Source of the DNA: Micromonospora chersina
GTDB lineage: Bacteria; Actinomycetota; Actinomycetes; Mycobacteriales; Micromonosporaceae
Direction: 5' to 3'
Assembly: GCF_900091475.1 (NCBI RefSeq)
Contig: NZ_FMIB01000002.1
Span: forward strand, 6,386,001-6,450,000
DNA: 64,000 bases
In this document: one piece after another, positions 42,720-48,705 of the stretch
How the letters are laid out: each line of letters starts with the position of its first letter
Position numbering within the stretch: the first letter of the stretch is position 1
Made by a program: the position numbers and the translations under genes
Notes under the pieces: generated by a model
The model's database searches: none
The model's input: the letters and a program-made list of their open reading frames with translations, nothing else
Told to the model about the DNA's origin: nothing

Positions 42720-42830
42720 GCCTCCCTTCCGATTGATCACGATCACCGGCACGCTACTGGAGGTGATCGAGGAGCGGGGGACCGCCCGGCGCGCTCGGAA
42801 TCGGCGGTGACGCAGGGTAGCGTGTCGCCC

Positions 42831-44750
42831 GTGTTCCCTACCGTCCGTGAGGTGCTCGCCCTGGTGCCGGTGCGCCACGGCGCCCCGCGCCTGGTCGCGG
42901 GGGACGCGGGCCTGGACCGGCCGGTGCGCTGGGTACACGTGGCCGAGGTGCCCGACATCGCCACCCTGCTCGGCGGCGGCGAGCTGGTGCTCACCACCGG
43001 GATCGGGCTGCCCGCCGACGACGCCGGGCTGCGGGCGTTCATCGGCGACCTGGCCGACGTCGGGGTCTCCGGGCTCGTCGTGGAGCTGGGCCGCCGCTAC
43101 GTCAGCGGGGTGCCCCGGGTCATGGCGGCCGCCGCCGAGCGCCGCGGGCTGCCCCTTGTCGAGCTGCGCCGGGCCACCCCGTTCGTGCGGATCACCGAGG
43201 CGGTGCACGCGCTGATCGTGGACGCCCAGCTCACCGAGCTGCGCGCCACCGAGGAGATCCACCAGCGGTTCACCGAACTCTCCGTGGAGGGAGCCGAGCC
43301 GGCCGAGGTGGTCCGCCAGGCCGCCGAGCTGGCCGGCTGCCCGGTGGTGCTGGAGAACCTGTCCCGGCAGGTGCTCGCGTACGACCCGGCGGGGGAGAGC
43401 GCCGAGCTGCTGCTGGACGGCTGGGAGCAGCACTCCCGGCGGATCCGGCCCGCCGGGCGCACCGCGTACGACCCGGACAGCGGGTGGCTGGTGACCACCG
43501 TGGGGGCCCGCGGCCAGGACTGGGGGCGGCTGCTGCTGCGCTGGCCGGCCGGCGGCGAGCTGACCACCGGCGGTCCCGACCGGACACCGGCCGCCCCGGA
43601 GGACCGGCCGGTGTCCGACGACCCGGCCCCGGCGATCACGATCGCCGCCGCCGACCCGTCCGACGGGTACGACGCCGGGGCGGCCGGCGCCGGCGCCCCG
43701 ACCGACCCCGCGACCCCGCCCACCCGGCTGACCATCCTGATCGAGCGGGCCGCCTCCACCCTCGCCCTGGGCCGGCTCATCCGGCGCGACGCCGAGGGAC
43801 TGGAACGGCAGATCCACCGGACCCTGCTCACCGCCCTCATCGACCACTCCCGCCCGGTGGACGAGGTGGCACTGCGCGCCAAGGCGCTCGGCGTCACCCT
43901 GGACCGCCGGCACCTGGTCGGCGTGGTGGTCCGGCACCGGGCCGACGACCCGGCCGAGGGCGGCGGGCCGGGCCCCGACGCCGGCCCCGAGGCCGGCCCG
44001 GCCCGGCTGCGCGACCTCGCCGAGGCGGTCGGCCAGGCGCTGCGGGAGGCGAAGCTGACCGCCCTGACCAGCGCCGTCGACGACCAGGCGGTGGGTGCGC
44101 TGCTCGCGCTGCCCGACCCGGCCGCCGAGGAGAAGGCGCTCGCCGCGTTCGCCGCCGCGCTGCGCCGGGTACGCCTCGACGCCGACCCGGCCCGCCCACC
44201 GGCGCCGCGCCCGGCCCGCCCCGTCGACCCGGCCGCCCGTACCGTGGCGGTCGGCGCGCTGCGGGCCGCGGATCCGGCGTCCCGCCCCCGCCCGGCCGGG
44301 CCGGCCGTGATCGTGGCGGCCGGTTCCGGGGTGGGCAGCCTGCGGGAGGCGCGCCGCTCACTCGTCGAGGCGCGGCAGGTCGCCGAGGCGGCCCGCCGGG
44401 ACCGCCGGGACCTGCCGTACTTCCGGCTGCCGCACGTCGGGCTGGCGGGCCTGCTGCACCTGCTGCGGGACGAGCCGCGGTTGCAGACCTTCGTCGAGCG
44501 GGAGCTGGGCGGGCTGCTGGCGTACGACGCCCAGCATCCCCGGGAGCAGTTGCTCGGCACCCTCCGGGCGTACCTGGAACAGGGCCGGAACAAGTCCGCG
44601 GCGGCCGCCGCCGCCCACCTGTCGCGACCCGCCTTCTACGAACGCCTGGCGCGCATCGGCCGCATCCTCGACGTGGACCTCGACTCGGTCGAGCAGTGCC
44701 TGTCCCTCCACGTGGCCCTACTGGCCCTGGACGCCGTCCGCACCCCCTGA
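42831..44750 (+). CDS. PucR-family transcriptional regulator
   Basis: 639 residues: N-terminal PucR purine-catabolism-type domain (about 1-125, VREVLALVPVRHGAPRL, VVELGRRYVSGVP), a GGDEF-like central region interrupted by Pro/Ala-rich loops, and a C-terminal HTH_30 (LLGTLRAYLEQGRNKSAAAA, then AAHLSRPAFYERLARIGRIL). Regulates nitrogen-compound or amino acid catabolism in known cases; target not evident. GTG at 42831 is chosen over 42807 and 42822 because a TAGCGT box at 42818-42823 sits exactly 7 nt before it and those upstream codons overlap or precede that box. Confidence 0.87.
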   Translation: MFPTVREVLALVPVRHGAPRLVAGDAGLDRPVRWVHVAEVPDIATLLGGGELVLTTGIGLPADDAGLRAFIGDLADVGVSGLVVELGRRYVSGVPRVMAAAAERRGLPLVELRRATPFVRITEAVHALIVDAQLTELRATEEIHQRFTELSVEGAEPAEVVRQAAELAGCPVVLENLSRQVLAYDPAGESAELLLDGWEQHSRRIRPAGRTAYDPDSGWLVTTVGARGQDWGRLLLRWPAGGELTTGGPDRTPAAPEDRPVSDDPAPAITIAAADPSDGYDAGAAGAGAPTDPATPPTRLTILIERAASTLALGRLIRRDAEGLERQIHRTLLTALIDHSRPVDEVALRAKALGVTLDRRHLVGVVVRHRADDPAEGGGPGPDAGPEAGPARLRDLAEAVGQALREAKLTALTSAVDDQAVGALLALPDPAAEEKALAAFAAALRRVRLDADPARPPAPRPARPVDPAARTVAVGALRAADPASRPRPAGPAVIVAAGSGVGSLREARRSLVEARQVAEAARRDRRDLPYFRLPHVGLAGLLHLLRDEPRLQTFVERELGGLLAYDAQHPREQLLGTLRAYLEQGRNKSAAAAAAHLSRPAFYERLARIGRILDVDLDSVEQCLSLHVALLALDAVRTP

Positions 44751-44782: not shown

Positions 44783-46132
44783 TCAGGTCAGGGCTGTCAG
44801 GGCCTTCGCGTACTGGGTGGGGACGTACGTCGGGCCGCCGGGGGTGAAGACGTCGGAGGTGGCGGCGGCCGACCAGGCCGTCGCCGGGACCGCTTCGACC
44901 AGGGCGCGGATCACCGGGGCGTCCCGCCACTGCTCCTGCTCGGCGAGCAGGCTCAGCGCGACCACCGACTCCTCCACCTCGCCGACGCACTCGAACGGCT
45001 TGTGGCCGTCCACCCCGAGCAGCTCCCGGTAGCCGGGGATCTGGGACTCGTCGGCCAGCAGGTCGCCGCCGAAGATCGCGGTGAGCCGCTCCCGGGGCAT
45101 GAACGGGGCCATGGCCAGGAAGACGAACCGGCACTTCGGGCAGTCGCGGCACCAGCGCTCGCTCGCGTCGCGCAGCTTGAACGCGGCGTTGCAGCTGGTC
45201 ACCACGGCGTCGTAGCGGTCGGTGTCGGCGAAGAGCCGGGCGATGTGCAGCTCGGACAGCGACCGCAGCAGCGAGAAGTACGGCTCGGTGAGGCCGGCGT
45301 GCTCGGCCAGTGCCGCCCGCAGCAGCCCCTCCGCCTCGACGCCCTTGGACCACTGGTGGTTGATCTCGTGGCCCTGCCAGACCAGGTTCGGGTCGGACGC
45401 CGAGCGCTCGTTGGACATCACCACCGGACCGAGCCCGTGCAGCACGGCCGTGGCGACCGCGATCAGCGAGTTGATCGCGGTGACCGGGATGTGCCCGTTC
45501 CGCGCGCCGGCCGCGTTGAGGTCGAACAGCACCGGGTCGATCCGCCGCCGGGCGGCGAGCGGCACCAGGTCGGACGCCTCGTTGACCGAGACGATGACGT
45601 GGTTCGGGTTGACCGAGAAGGGCACCGGGTCGAAGCCGGCCCGGCGCAGCGCCTCCAGCGTGACGATGGAGTCCTTGCCGCCGCCGACGGCCGACAGCGG
45701 GCGCCGGTCGGAGTTGTCCAGCGGCGCGGCCGGCTCCACCGAGCCGGCCGGCACCTCCGGGCGCAGCTCCAGCACGTGCGGCAACTGGTTGCGGTACGCG
45801 TACTCGGCGAGGCCCTTGGTGTAGACGGCGGTCACGAGGTCGGCGGCGGCGGCGCCCAGCGGCGCCGGCAGCACCAGCCGGGGCGGCGCGGCGGCCTTGT
45901 AGTAGCTGACCCCGGCGACCACGTGCAGCAGTTCGAGGACCCGCGCCAGGGTGGCCGCGGTGTCGTCGGACACCGGCTCCGCCGGCAGGGGAAGGGTGAC
46001 CACCTCGGTGAACCGCTGCTCGCCGTCGGGGCCGGTCAGGGCGTAGTCGAACAACACCTCGCCGGTGGCGAAGTCGATCGAGTAGGACGGGAAGGTGAAG
46101 GCGTCCATCCGCCGCAGCTGCTCGTTGGGCAC
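44783..46132 (-). CDS. murL: UDP-MurNAc-L-Ala-L-Glu epimerase (MurL)
   Basis: 449 residues, matching MurL in length and architecture: an N-terminal domain (FPSYSIDFATGEVLFDYALT), then an ATP-pyrophosphatase-like loop SAVGGGKDSIVTLEALR (about 155-170), GHIPVTAINSLIAVATA, VMSNERSASDPNLVW, and a CRDCPKCRF metal-type cluster. MurL, characterised in Xanthomonas oryzae, uses ATP to epimerise the terminal L-Glu of UDP-MurNAc-L-Ala-L-Glu to D-Glu, bypassing glutamate racemase. The divergent neighbour is a MurD-type ligase, the known partner. Start is the GTG at 46132 (VPNEQLRR), 5 nt after a TAGTAT box (46143-46138), so leaderless; the ATG at 46108 is the alternative. Confidence 0.87.
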   Translation of the reverse strand: MPNEQLRRMDAFTFPSYSIDFATGEVLFDYALTGPDGEQRFTEVVTLPLPAEPVSDDTAATLARVLELLHVVAGVSYYKAAAPPRLVLPAPLGAAAADLVTAVYTKGLAEYAYRNQLPHVLELRPEVPAGSVEPAAPLDNSDRRPLSAVGGGKDSIVTLEALRRAGFDPVPFSVNPNHVIVSVNEASDLVPLAARRRIDPVLFDLNAAGARNGHIPVTAINSLIAVATAVLHGLGPVVMSNERSASDPNLVWQGHEINHQWSKGVEAEGLLRAALAEHAGLTEPYFSLLRSLSELHIARLFADTDRYDAVVTSCNAAFKLRDASERWCRDCPKCRFVFLAMAPFMPRERLTAIFGGDLLADESQIPGYRELLGVDGHKPFECVGEVEESVVALSLLAEQEQWRDAPVIRALVEAVPATAWSAAATSDVFTPGGPTYVPTQYAKALTALT

Positions 46133-46222
46133 ACGCCATACTAGGCCCTGGTTCGTCCGGCCGTGTCCGGCTGTGCCGGACCGCACCCGCCGACCCGCCG
46201 ACCCGACCCCCGAGGAGAGCCC
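46133..46222. promoter_or_regulatory. murL-murD2 divergent promoter
   Basis: 90 bp between the two starts. On the minus strand a near-consensus -10 box TAGTAT (46143-46138) places transcription at or next to the murL GTG. On the plus strand GAGGAGAG (46211-46218) is the murD2 ribosome site. A shared control region would keep the two enzymes in step. Confidence 0.6.
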
Positions 46223-47569
46223 GTGCGCCTGTCTGATCTGCGCGGACGTCATGTCGCCGTCTGGGGCGCCGGCCGGGAGGGCCGGGCCGCGGTGACCGCG
46301 ATCGCCGCGCACGGCCCGGCCGACCTGGTGGCCGTCGACGACAGCGCGAACTTCCTCACCCTGCCCTGGGAGGGCCCGCTCGCCGCGGCGGCGCCGCTGG
46401 TCACCGGGGAGGACGGCTTCGCCCGGCTGGCCGCCGCCGACGTGGTGGTCCGCTCGCCCGGGGTGCCGAACACCCACCCCTGGATGGTGGAGCTGCGCCG
46501 CCGGGCCGTCCCGGTCACCCAGGGCAGCGCGCTCTGGATGGCCGACCACGCGGACCGGACCGTCGGGGTGACCGGCAGCAAGGGCAAGAGCACCACCTCC
46601 AGCCTGATCAGCCACCTGCTCACCGCCATGGACCGGCCGAACGTCTTCGGCGGCAACATCGGGGTGCCGCTGCTCGACCTGCCCGAGGCGGAGCTGTACG
46701 TGCTGGAGCTGTCCAGCTACCAGTGCGCCGACCTGACCGACTCGCCGCGGGTGGCCGTGGTGACGGCGCTGTTTCCCGAGCACCTGGACGCGCACGGCGG
46801 CGAGCGGGAGTACTACCGGGACAAGCTCAACCTGCTAGCGCACGGTCCGCACACCGTGGTGGTCAACGGCGCCGACCCGCGGCTGGCGTTCGAACTGGGG
46901 GACCGGGCGGCGGTCCGGGCCGGGTCGACGGACACCACCCACGTGGCCACCGGCCCGGACGGCGCCCGCTGGTTCCACCTGCGGGACACGCCGCTGTTCC
47001 CGCGCGCCGTGCTGCCCCTGGTCGGGCGGCACAACGAGGGCAACCTCTGCGTCGCCCTCGCCGTGCTCGACGCGCTCGGCGTCGACGTGGTGGCGCGCAA
47101 GGACAGCCTCGCCATCGCGGTGGCCGGGTTCCAGGGCCTCGCCCACCGGCTCACCGAGATCGCCGACCCGTCCGGGCTCACCTTCGTCGATGACACGCTG
47201 GCCACCAGCCCGTACGCGGCCATGCACGCGATCGACGCGTACGAGGGGCGGCCGTTGACCGTGATCGTCGGCGGGACCGATCGGGGGCTGGACTACACCC
47301 CGCTCCGCGACCACCTGGCCGAGCGGGAGATCACCGTCATCGGCATCCCGGACAGCGGCCCCCGGATCGTGGAGGCCCTCGCCGGGCTGGCGGCGGTGCG
47401 CACCGAACTCGCCGAGGACCTGGTGGCCGCCGTGGGGCTGGCCCGCAAGCTCACCCCGGCCGGCGGCGTGGTGCTGCTCTCCCCGGCCGCGCCCAGCTAC
47501 GGCCGGTTCCGCAACTTCGAGCACCGCTCCGAGGTCTTCGCGCAGGCGGTCGCCGACACCGCCCGCTGA
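46223..47569 (+). CDS. murD2: MurD-type ligase, probable MurD2 (UDP-MurNAc-L-Ala:L-Glu ligase)
   Basis: 448 residues of the Mur ligase fold: N-terminal Rossmann domain (HVAVWGAGREGRAAV), ATP loop GVTGSKGKSTTSSL (about 115-128), ELSSYQ, FPEHLDAHGG, central N/H-x-N-x2-N region (GRHNEGNLCVALAV) and C-terminal domain with IVGGTDRGLDY. Canonical MurD adds D-Glu; the MurD2 subgroup paired with MurL adds L-Glu. Pairing with murL is the reason for the MurD2 reading; substrate stereochemistry cannot be read from the sequence. GTG at 46223 follows GAGGAGAG. Confidence 0.85.
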   Translation: MRLSDLRGRHVAVWGAGREGRAAVTAIAAHGPADLVAVDDSANFLTLPWEGPLAAAAPLVTGEDGFARLAAADVVVRSPGVPNTHPWMVELRRRAVPVTQGSALWMADHADRTVGVTGSKGKSTTSSLISHLLTAMDRPNVFGGNIGVPLLDLPEAELYVLELSSYQCADLTDSPRVAVVTALFPEHLDAHGGEREYYRDKLNLLAHGPHTVVVNGADPRLAFELGDRAAVRAGSTDTTHVATGPDGARWFHLRDTPLFPRAVLPLVGRHNEGNLCVALAVLDALGVDVVARKDSLAIAVAGFQGLAHRLTEIADPSGLTFVDDTLATSPYAAMHAIDAYEGRPLTVIVGGTDRGLDYTPLRDHLAEREITVIGIPDSGPRIVEALAGLAAVRTELAEDLVAAVGLARKLTPAGGVVLLSPAAPSYGRFRNFEHRSEVFAQAVADTAR

Positions 47570-47570
47570 C

Positions 47571-48074
47571 TCAGCCCCGCTCGGCCGCGGCCGGGTCCGG
47601 CGTCTCGACGCCGGGCAGCGGCGCGGTGTCGGCGTCGTCCGCCGGCTCGCGGGGCGCCGGCGGTCCGGCAGCCTCGGTGGCCGGCCGGCGCCGCCGGTCC
47701 GGGGTCCAGGCGAAGGCGAGCGCGCCGCCGACCAGGGCCAGGAGCATCCCCACCAGGAAGCCGCCCAGGTTCGACGTCAGCCAGGAGACCAGCCCGAGCA
47801 CCAGGGAGACCAGCGCGTAGAAGACCCGCTGCTGCGGCGTGGCGATCAGCAGCGCCCCGCAGATCACCAGGATGATCGGCACCAGGTAGGCGGCCAGCCC
47901 CTGCGGCCCGATGTGCAGCAGCACCCCGAGCGGGGCACGCAGGGTCACCAGCATCTCCGCGCCGCCGAGTGCCACCAGCACACCGGCGGTGAACGGGCGG
48001 CCCCGCCGCCACCGGCGCCAGCGCCCGCCGGACCGGCGGGCGGCCGGCGCCGCCTCGTGTTTCGGGGCGGTCAT
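47571..48074 (-). CDS. DUF6114 family membrane protein
   Basis: 167 residues: basic start, four hydrophobic segments (about 30-125: AGVLVALGGAEMLVTL, YLVPIILVICGALLIA, VFYALVSLVLGLVSWLTS, LVGMLLALVGGALAFAW) and an acidic Pro-rich tail. DUF6114 proteins are normally encoded after a DUF6230 protein, as here; the two are separated by 1 nt (TGA-G-ATG), so translation is coupled. Function unknown. Confidence 0.8.
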   Translation of the reverse strand: MTAPKHEAAPAARRSGGRWRRWRRGRPFTAGVLVALGGAEMLVTLRAPLGVLLHIGPQGLAAYLVPIILVICGALLIATPQQRVFYALVSLVLGLVSWLTSNLGGFLVGMLLALVGGALAFAWTPDRRRRPATEAAGPPAPREPADDADTAPLPGVETPDPAAAERG

Positions 48075-48075
48075 C

Positions 48076-48705
48076 TCAGCACCCGTCGGAGCTGAACGCC
48101 ATGTGCAGGTTGGGCAGGGTGAAGACGGCGGCCGTCGTGGCGTAGTTGTTCTGCCGCAGGTTGGTGATGGTCACCGTGTCGGCCTGCTGGGCGAAGACGC
48201 CCGGGTTGCCGCGGACCCCGGGCACCTGGTCGACGGTGCTGGCGTCCTGACCGACGTTGATGTTCTTGAACGAGGCGTTGCCGGCGACCTCGTCGCCGTC
48301 GACGACCAGGGTCCGGGCGGTGACCGGCTTGCCCTCGCCGCCGGCGGTGATCCGCAGGTTGATCCCGCCCAGGCTGATGCTCTGGCACAGGTTCGTCAGT
48401 TCGGCCTTGTCGATCGCCGAGACGATCACCACGACCTGCCCGCCGGTGTCGCCCTGGTTGGGGCTGTCCGGAATCATCTGGTCGAGCGTGGCGAACTGCT
48501 CGAACCCGGTGCCGGTGAGCTTGTCGGCCGTGACGGTGAACGGCATGCCCGAGATGGCGAACTGGGCGCCGAGCACGCCCTGGGCGGTCAGCACCACCAT
48601 GCCGGCCGCGCCGACCGCGACGGTGCCCAGCGTGACGGCGAACCGGCGCCAGCGCACGCCGCTGCGCGGCGGCTCGGGCTCGTGCGGTGCGATGTGCTCC
48701 GACAT
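48076..48705 (-). CDS. DUF6230 family protein
   Basis: 209 residues: basic stretch (RWRRFAVTLG), one hydrophobic segment (about 22-45), then an extracellular domain with two cysteines (LTNLCQ and SDGC at the C-terminus) likely disulfide-bonded. Relatives are sometimes labelled cholesterol esterase without support; no catalytic triad is visible. Good AAGGAG before the ATG at 48705. Confidence 0.8.
   Translation of the reverse strand: MSEHIAPHEPEPPRSGVRWRRFAVTLGTVAVGAAGMVVLTAQGVLGAQFAISGMPFTVTADKLTGTGFEQFATLDQMIPDSPNQGDTGGQVVVIVSAIDKAELTNLCQSISLGGINLRITAGGEGKPVTARTLVVDGDEVAGNASFKNINVGQDASTVDQVPGVRGNPGVFAQQADTVTITNLRQNNYATTAAVFTLPNLHMAFSSDGC

Follow-up and report, generated by a model that had tools for sequence, protein, structure and literature searches.

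The window analysed here is a 64,000-nucleotide stretch of the Micromonospora chersina genome (C2:6386001-6450000). It carries two head-to-head genes, murL and murD2, whose products almost certainly make up the MurD2/MurL peptidoglycan pathway, the only route to cell wall D-glutamate (D-Glu) found in this Micromonospora, a soil bacterium. The original prediction had described a divergent pair, a MurL gene with a GGGKDS motif and a Mur ligase gene across a shared 90-bp gap, and both open reading frames (ORFs), their coordinates and the 90 bp were confirmed.

44783..46132, minus strand: murL, an ORF matching NF041275, GTG start at 46132, stop codon ending at 44783, 449 amino acids
46133..46222, no strand: intergenic region common to the divergent murL and murD2, exactly 90 bp between the GTG starts
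46223..47569, plus strand: murD2, an ORF matching TIGR01087, GTG start at 46223, 448 amino acids

The murL product matches the NCBIfam family NF041275 at 409.9 bits (E 1e-122) through residues 8-447; the match covers profile positions 6-445 of 447, as expected of a full-length MurL homolog of the MurD2/MurL pathway. It is 91% identical to the protein of Micromonospora sp. ATCC 39149 and 81% identical to that of Salinispora tropica. The database proteins P0045 and P0102 (MPNEQLRRMDAF), from these two organisms, have the same start as the window MurL; an alternative murL start is the ATG at 46108. MurD2 matches the TIGR01087 murD model at 294 bits, above the cut-off of 211.95. Among related loci (the best 80 of 155 found, from Micromonospora, Salinispora, Verrucosispora and one other member of the Micromonosporaceae), both genes are present in 79 of 80 and divergent in all 79, which argues that their pairing is more than chance. 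At the remaining locus (L023) no murD2 is present, and only 158 bases of contig lie upstream of the murL match.

The MurD2/MurL route is already known for Micromonospora. A 2021 review lists the gene pair for Micromonospora, Actinoplanes, Verrucosispora and Salinispora, states that Micromonospora sp. ATCC 39149 uses the pathway, and reports in vitro confirmation for orthologs from a Micromonospora sp. (the strain is unspecified in that sentence) and S. tropica (PMC8788868). The earlier remark that such pairs had been noted in a few actinobacteria understates what was known. These orthologs belong to the same family as the window pair and differ only in species, and the divergent arrangement is also seen in ATCC 39149 (L049) and in the fetched Salinispora loci, S. 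tropica itself not being among them. In Xanthomonas oryzae the same two enzymes, MurD2 (XOO_1320) and MurL (XOO_1319), likewise occur with no MurI and with Glu and Arg at the residues that switch glutamate selection (PMC8788868), and their genes bear consecutive locus tags; the window pair is divergent. What is added here is a fold prediction for MurL, a conserved murL start element, a wider actinobacterial range, and nine MurDs that combine Asp with Arg at the switch residues; the interest of the locus is modest, that of the fold lead higher.

Glutamate selection by MurD2 and the sources of D-glutamate

X. oryzae MurD2 departs from E. coli MurD at four residues near the bound glutamate (D182/E197, K348/R358, A414/P433 and L416/F435, the E. 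coli residue first), and the change E197D/R358K converts X. oryzae MurD2 into a D-Glu ligase (PMC8788868). The literature numbering of E. coli MurD is the gene numbering minus one. By alignment with E. coli MurD, the window MurD2 has E186, R354, P424 and Y426 at the four sites, the first two corresponding to the switch positions.

46778..46780, plus strand: MurD2 E186, L-glutamate (L-Glu) determinant (E. coli MurD D182, X. oryzae MurD2 E197), placed by alignment, site from PMC8788868
47282..47284, plus strand: MurD2 R354, L-Glu determinant (E. coli MurD K348, X. oryzae MurD2 R358), placed by alignment, site from PMC8788868

Glu and Arg are both present in 79 of 79 ligases from the Micromonosporaceae relatives, and 30 of 30 canonical MurDs (the 30 best-scoring loci of the murD search of the order) have Asp and Lys.

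The genome assembly (6.68 Mb, rated 99.99% complete) was searched as a whole for other sources of D-Glu. Neither PF01177 (the Asp/Glu racemase family) nor TIGR00067 (glutamate racemase) gave a match; as a positive control, the racemase searches gave matches in 10 of 14 control genomes. Nothing in the genome exceeds the cut-off of the D-amino-acid aminotransferase model TIGR01121. The window MurD is the only one over the cut-off, and the five further Mur-like matches are weaker, the best among them being murC. There is no second murD in the dcw cluster, whose Mur genes lie at about C2:6158800-6166200; the order there is mraY-ftsW-murG-murC, without the murD that in E. coli lies between the first two. 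The proposal of a racemase-independent route to D-Glu is thus supported by the finding of neither a murI nor a canonical murD elsewhere in the genome, together with the L-Glu residues E186 and R354.

A different account would make the ligase a standard MurD that adds D-Glu and was relocated from the dcw cluster, with D-Glu coming from an unrecognised racemase or transaminase and MurL a bystander. The ligase does pass the general murD model, and the genome has two weak D-amino-acid aminotransferase matches (63 and 39.6 bits, where the cut-off is 277.45), but the account is highly improbable in view of the lack of any MurI-family match in so complete a genome, the presence of Glu and Arg rather than Asp and Lys at both published switch positions, the divergent linkage to murL in every locus with both genes, and the published in vitro results on orthologs. 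A role for the pair in making a specialised metabolite or in some minor modification of the wall, as its location away from the dcw cluster might suggest, is barely credible, since no other MurD over the cut-off and no other D-Glu source were found in the genome and, within the genus, 34 of 34 sampled genomes have MurL; for the same reasons the pair most likely serves the essential stem peptide.

An L-Glu ligase and a unidirectional, ATP-dependent epimerase activity have been reported for orthologs of the two proteins (PMC8788868). By analogy, MurD2 would ligate L-Glu, at the expense of ATP, to the UDP-muramoyl-amino-acid that MurC produces. MurL would then activate the alpha-carboxylate of the added L-Glu with ATP, releasing AMP; the activated residue would lose its alpha proton and regain one in the D configuration, and hydrolysis would release the D-Glu product for MurE. 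The adenylate step is a published hypothesis for MurL. UDP-MurNAc-L-Ala, the substrate originally proposed, may not be the one used here, where the precursor may be glycolylated and may bear glycine, which would be a difference from Xanthomonas. Position 1 of the Micromonospora stem peptide is glycine. A Verrucosispora species, a member of the same family, has wall glycine, meso-diaminopimelate and glycolylated muramic acid (PMC5754459). Judging from this one relative's wall and from the glycine at position 1, the natural substrates may be UDP-MurNGlyc-Gly and UDP-MurNGlyc-Gly-L-Glu. The genome-wide result fits the published picture of MurD2/MurL as the route of this antibiotic-producing genus, and it follows from the route that inhibitors of MurI should find no target in the genus, whereas inhibitors of MurD2/MurL should.

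The gap between mraY and ftsW holds only a short stretch with a very stable hairpin (z -3.5), possibly a terminator, possibly a trace left by the loss of murD.

L007 11326-11400, C2 near 6162325: hairpin in the mraY-ftsW gap of the same genome's dcw cluster, -40.1 kcal/mol

Distribution of MurL and MurI in actinobacteria

Of the 249 genomes surveyed in the order, 63 gave a MurL match, and in 61 the score was at least 290 bits; this strong set excludes G024 (93.7 bits) and G005, whose 40.5-bit match lies at a contig end and adjoins a ligase. Among the 61 strong MurL carriers, 1 has MurI over the cut-off, compared with 175 of the 188 other genomes, and any MurI-like match at E<=0.001 is present in 10 of the 61 as opposed to 184 of the 188. 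A sample of 246 genomes of the phylum gave a similar picture, with MurL in 15, and MurI over the cut-off in none of these and in 213 of the other 231. The actinobacterial families with MurL go beyond those represented by the four genera of the review. The route is not universal in the Micromonosporaceae, since six genomes of the family (g3 and g4) have MurI and lack MurL. In 240 genomes of the order murD was matched at E<=1e-40, once in each. Outside the genus, MurL adjoins a ligase in 25 of 27 strong loci (21 tandem, 3 convergent and 1 divergent, L149, as counted by eye), the two others being L153 and L171; divergence of the two genes is thus associated with Micromonospora and its nearest relatives (all 79 loci there that have both genes, 1 of 27 strong loci outside the genus).

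The switch residues are less uniform at this distance. Among 28 MurDs from MurL-match genomes outside the genus, Arg is found in 26 and Glu in 17. Only two (L120 and L121) have Asp with Lys. They come from G024, whose MurL match is the weak one of 93.7 bits, and from G247; both genomes carry MurI over the cut-off, and no other MurL-match genome in the order sample does. Asp with Arg is found in nine MurL-partner MurDs (L127, L132-L135, L138-L140 and L147), whose genomes include none with MurI over the cut-off and two with weak MurI-like matches. Arg at the R358 position may, to judge from these alignments, be a more general marker of L-Glu use than Glu.

Several points tell against the assignment of the window pair to the MurD2/MurL route. 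NF041275 is a Xanthomonadales-specific MurL equivalog with a curated cut-off of 700 bits, which the window MurL does not reach at 409.9 bits, nor do the other actinobacterial matches of the order and phylum samples, with 0 of the 249 order genomes reaching it; for this reason the protein is placed in the wider MurL family of the review and not under the NF041275 model itself. Ten strong MurL genomes of the order do have a MurI-like match, although in nine the E-value is no better than 5e-26 and the match thus falls below the cut-off, and weak MurI matches occur in 2 of the 15 MurL genomes of the phylum sample. The Fisher p-values for MurL against MurI (1.6e-43 for the order and 2.9e-15 for the phylum) overstate the case because genomes share phylogeny. 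Finally, while gene order and genome content are observed directly, the activity of the window proteins is assigned by analogy with orthologs whose reactions the literature demonstrates.

In the order survey, G247 carries a MurL homolog (L171, C2:224816-226066, 299 bits) that has SGGKDS and no adjoining MurD match; this genome also has MurI over the cut-off and a MurD of the Asp/Lys type, the MurL homolog lying on another contig. L171 is perhaps a MurL relative with another substrate. Neither MurL nor MurI was matched in G006, G033 and G131; two of the three are 74 and 81% complete, but G006 reaches 97% and does contain a MurD.

Predicted fold of MurL

MurL was earlier described as having no known domains and an unclear mechanism (PMC5808125, PMC8788868), and a Pfam search assigned no domain to the window protein. 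It is predicted here to be a QueC-like enzyme with the Rossmann-like PP-loop fold, of a family familiar from the modification of tRNA and from defence against viruses, its closest overall relative by predicted fold, though not by sequence, being the defence protein QatC. Two motifs bear on this model.

45668..45685, minus strand: PP-loop GGGKDS, MurL residues 150-155, aligned by hhalign to the SGGLDS loop of QueC
45131..45193, minus strand: putative zinc-binding cysteines C314, C328, C331 and C334 of MurL, aligned by hhalign to SC...C..C..C of QueC

In an alignment of 32 MurLs, G151, G152, D154 and S155 of the loop are invariant, and the loop equivalent to the QueC-type SGGxDS reads GGGxDS in 31 and SGGKDS in L171. 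Also invariant is C314-x13-C328-xx-C331-xx-C334, which matches the QueC-type C(x)nCxxCxxC pattern for a putative zinc; in QatC, C334, C354, C357 and C360 surround a zinc (PMC13279940). The predicted fold and motifs are those of QueC-type carboxylate-activating PP-loop enzymes, an addition of this work to the adenylate hypothesis, and such a fold for MurL was not found in the open-access literature searched. The model gives candidate residues for mutation: the GGGKDS loop, the Cys4 site and the other invariant residues.

The sequence comparisons weigh against this prediction. The link to QueC is weak (hhalign E 0.0017, probability 15%), a deep QatC profile gave no sensible alignment with MurL (E 0.061), QatC was absent among the matches listed for the MurL N-terminal domain alone, and PF06508 (QueC) matched 0 of the 32 MurLs at E<=1. 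NF041275 is the sole NCBIfam family matching the window MurL at E<=0.01, hence there is no match to the QatC family NF041925. MurL is accordingly called a fold relative, and not a member, of the QueC and QatC families. It differs from QatC (of qatABCD defence), QueC and Cap9 in having GGGKDS instead of SGGxDS, in lacking a PF06508 match or a significant QatC sequence match, and in its substrate, and no defence context was seen at the window MurL. Pfam DUF6395 (PF19932), possibly a distant MurL relative, weakly matches 3 of the 32 aligned MurLs (best E 0.0046).

The fold of MurL may bear on the role of QatC in phage defence, which is called unresolved in PMC13279940. A doubtful possibility is that a single QueC-derived ancestor, with the same extensions at its N and C termini, gave rise to both MurL and anti-phage QatC; QatC would then be expected to activate the carboxylate of a peptide, either QatB or another one, and perhaps to epimerise it as well. 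Were this so, MurL would supply the first reaction known for an enzyme of that architecture.

The shared intergenic region and flanking genes

The murL-murD2 gap measures 48-125 bp in 77 of 79 relatives and 1.7-1.9 kb in L014 and L018. It contains the following start signals.

46138..46143, minus strand: TAGTAT, putative -10 element of murL, 5 nt ahead of the GTG, identified by conservation in relatives
46212..46217, plus strand: GAGGAG, normal ribosome-binding site of murD2, read from the sequence

TANNNT stands exactly 5 nt before the aligned MurL start in 78 of 79 loci, the start codon being GTG in the same 78; at the 79th, L018, which the script misregistered, the same element is visible (TAGTATGGCGTGTG), and a second script, which searched for a GTG following such an element, located one at each of the 80 loci. 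TAGTAT-N5-GTG is retained even in L014 and L018, where a large insert lies directly upstream. This conservation suggests that the sequence is a -10 element and that the murL mRNA is leaderless. A scan for two sigma-70 hexamers found nothing, and the spacing from the -10 to the start is slightly short.

An inverted repeat, GTCCGGC-ACA-GCCGGAC, lies at window positions 46165-46181, with similar sequence in many relatives, and is a possible operator. In Micromonospora humi the insert between murD2 and murL (L014 1795-3500) encodes a TnpB/OrfB_IS605 protein. The divergent pair is flanked by convergent genes (window 42807-44750 and 47571-48705): murL ends 32 bp away from a PucR-type regulator, and murD2 ends 1 bp away from DUF6114/DUF6230 genes.
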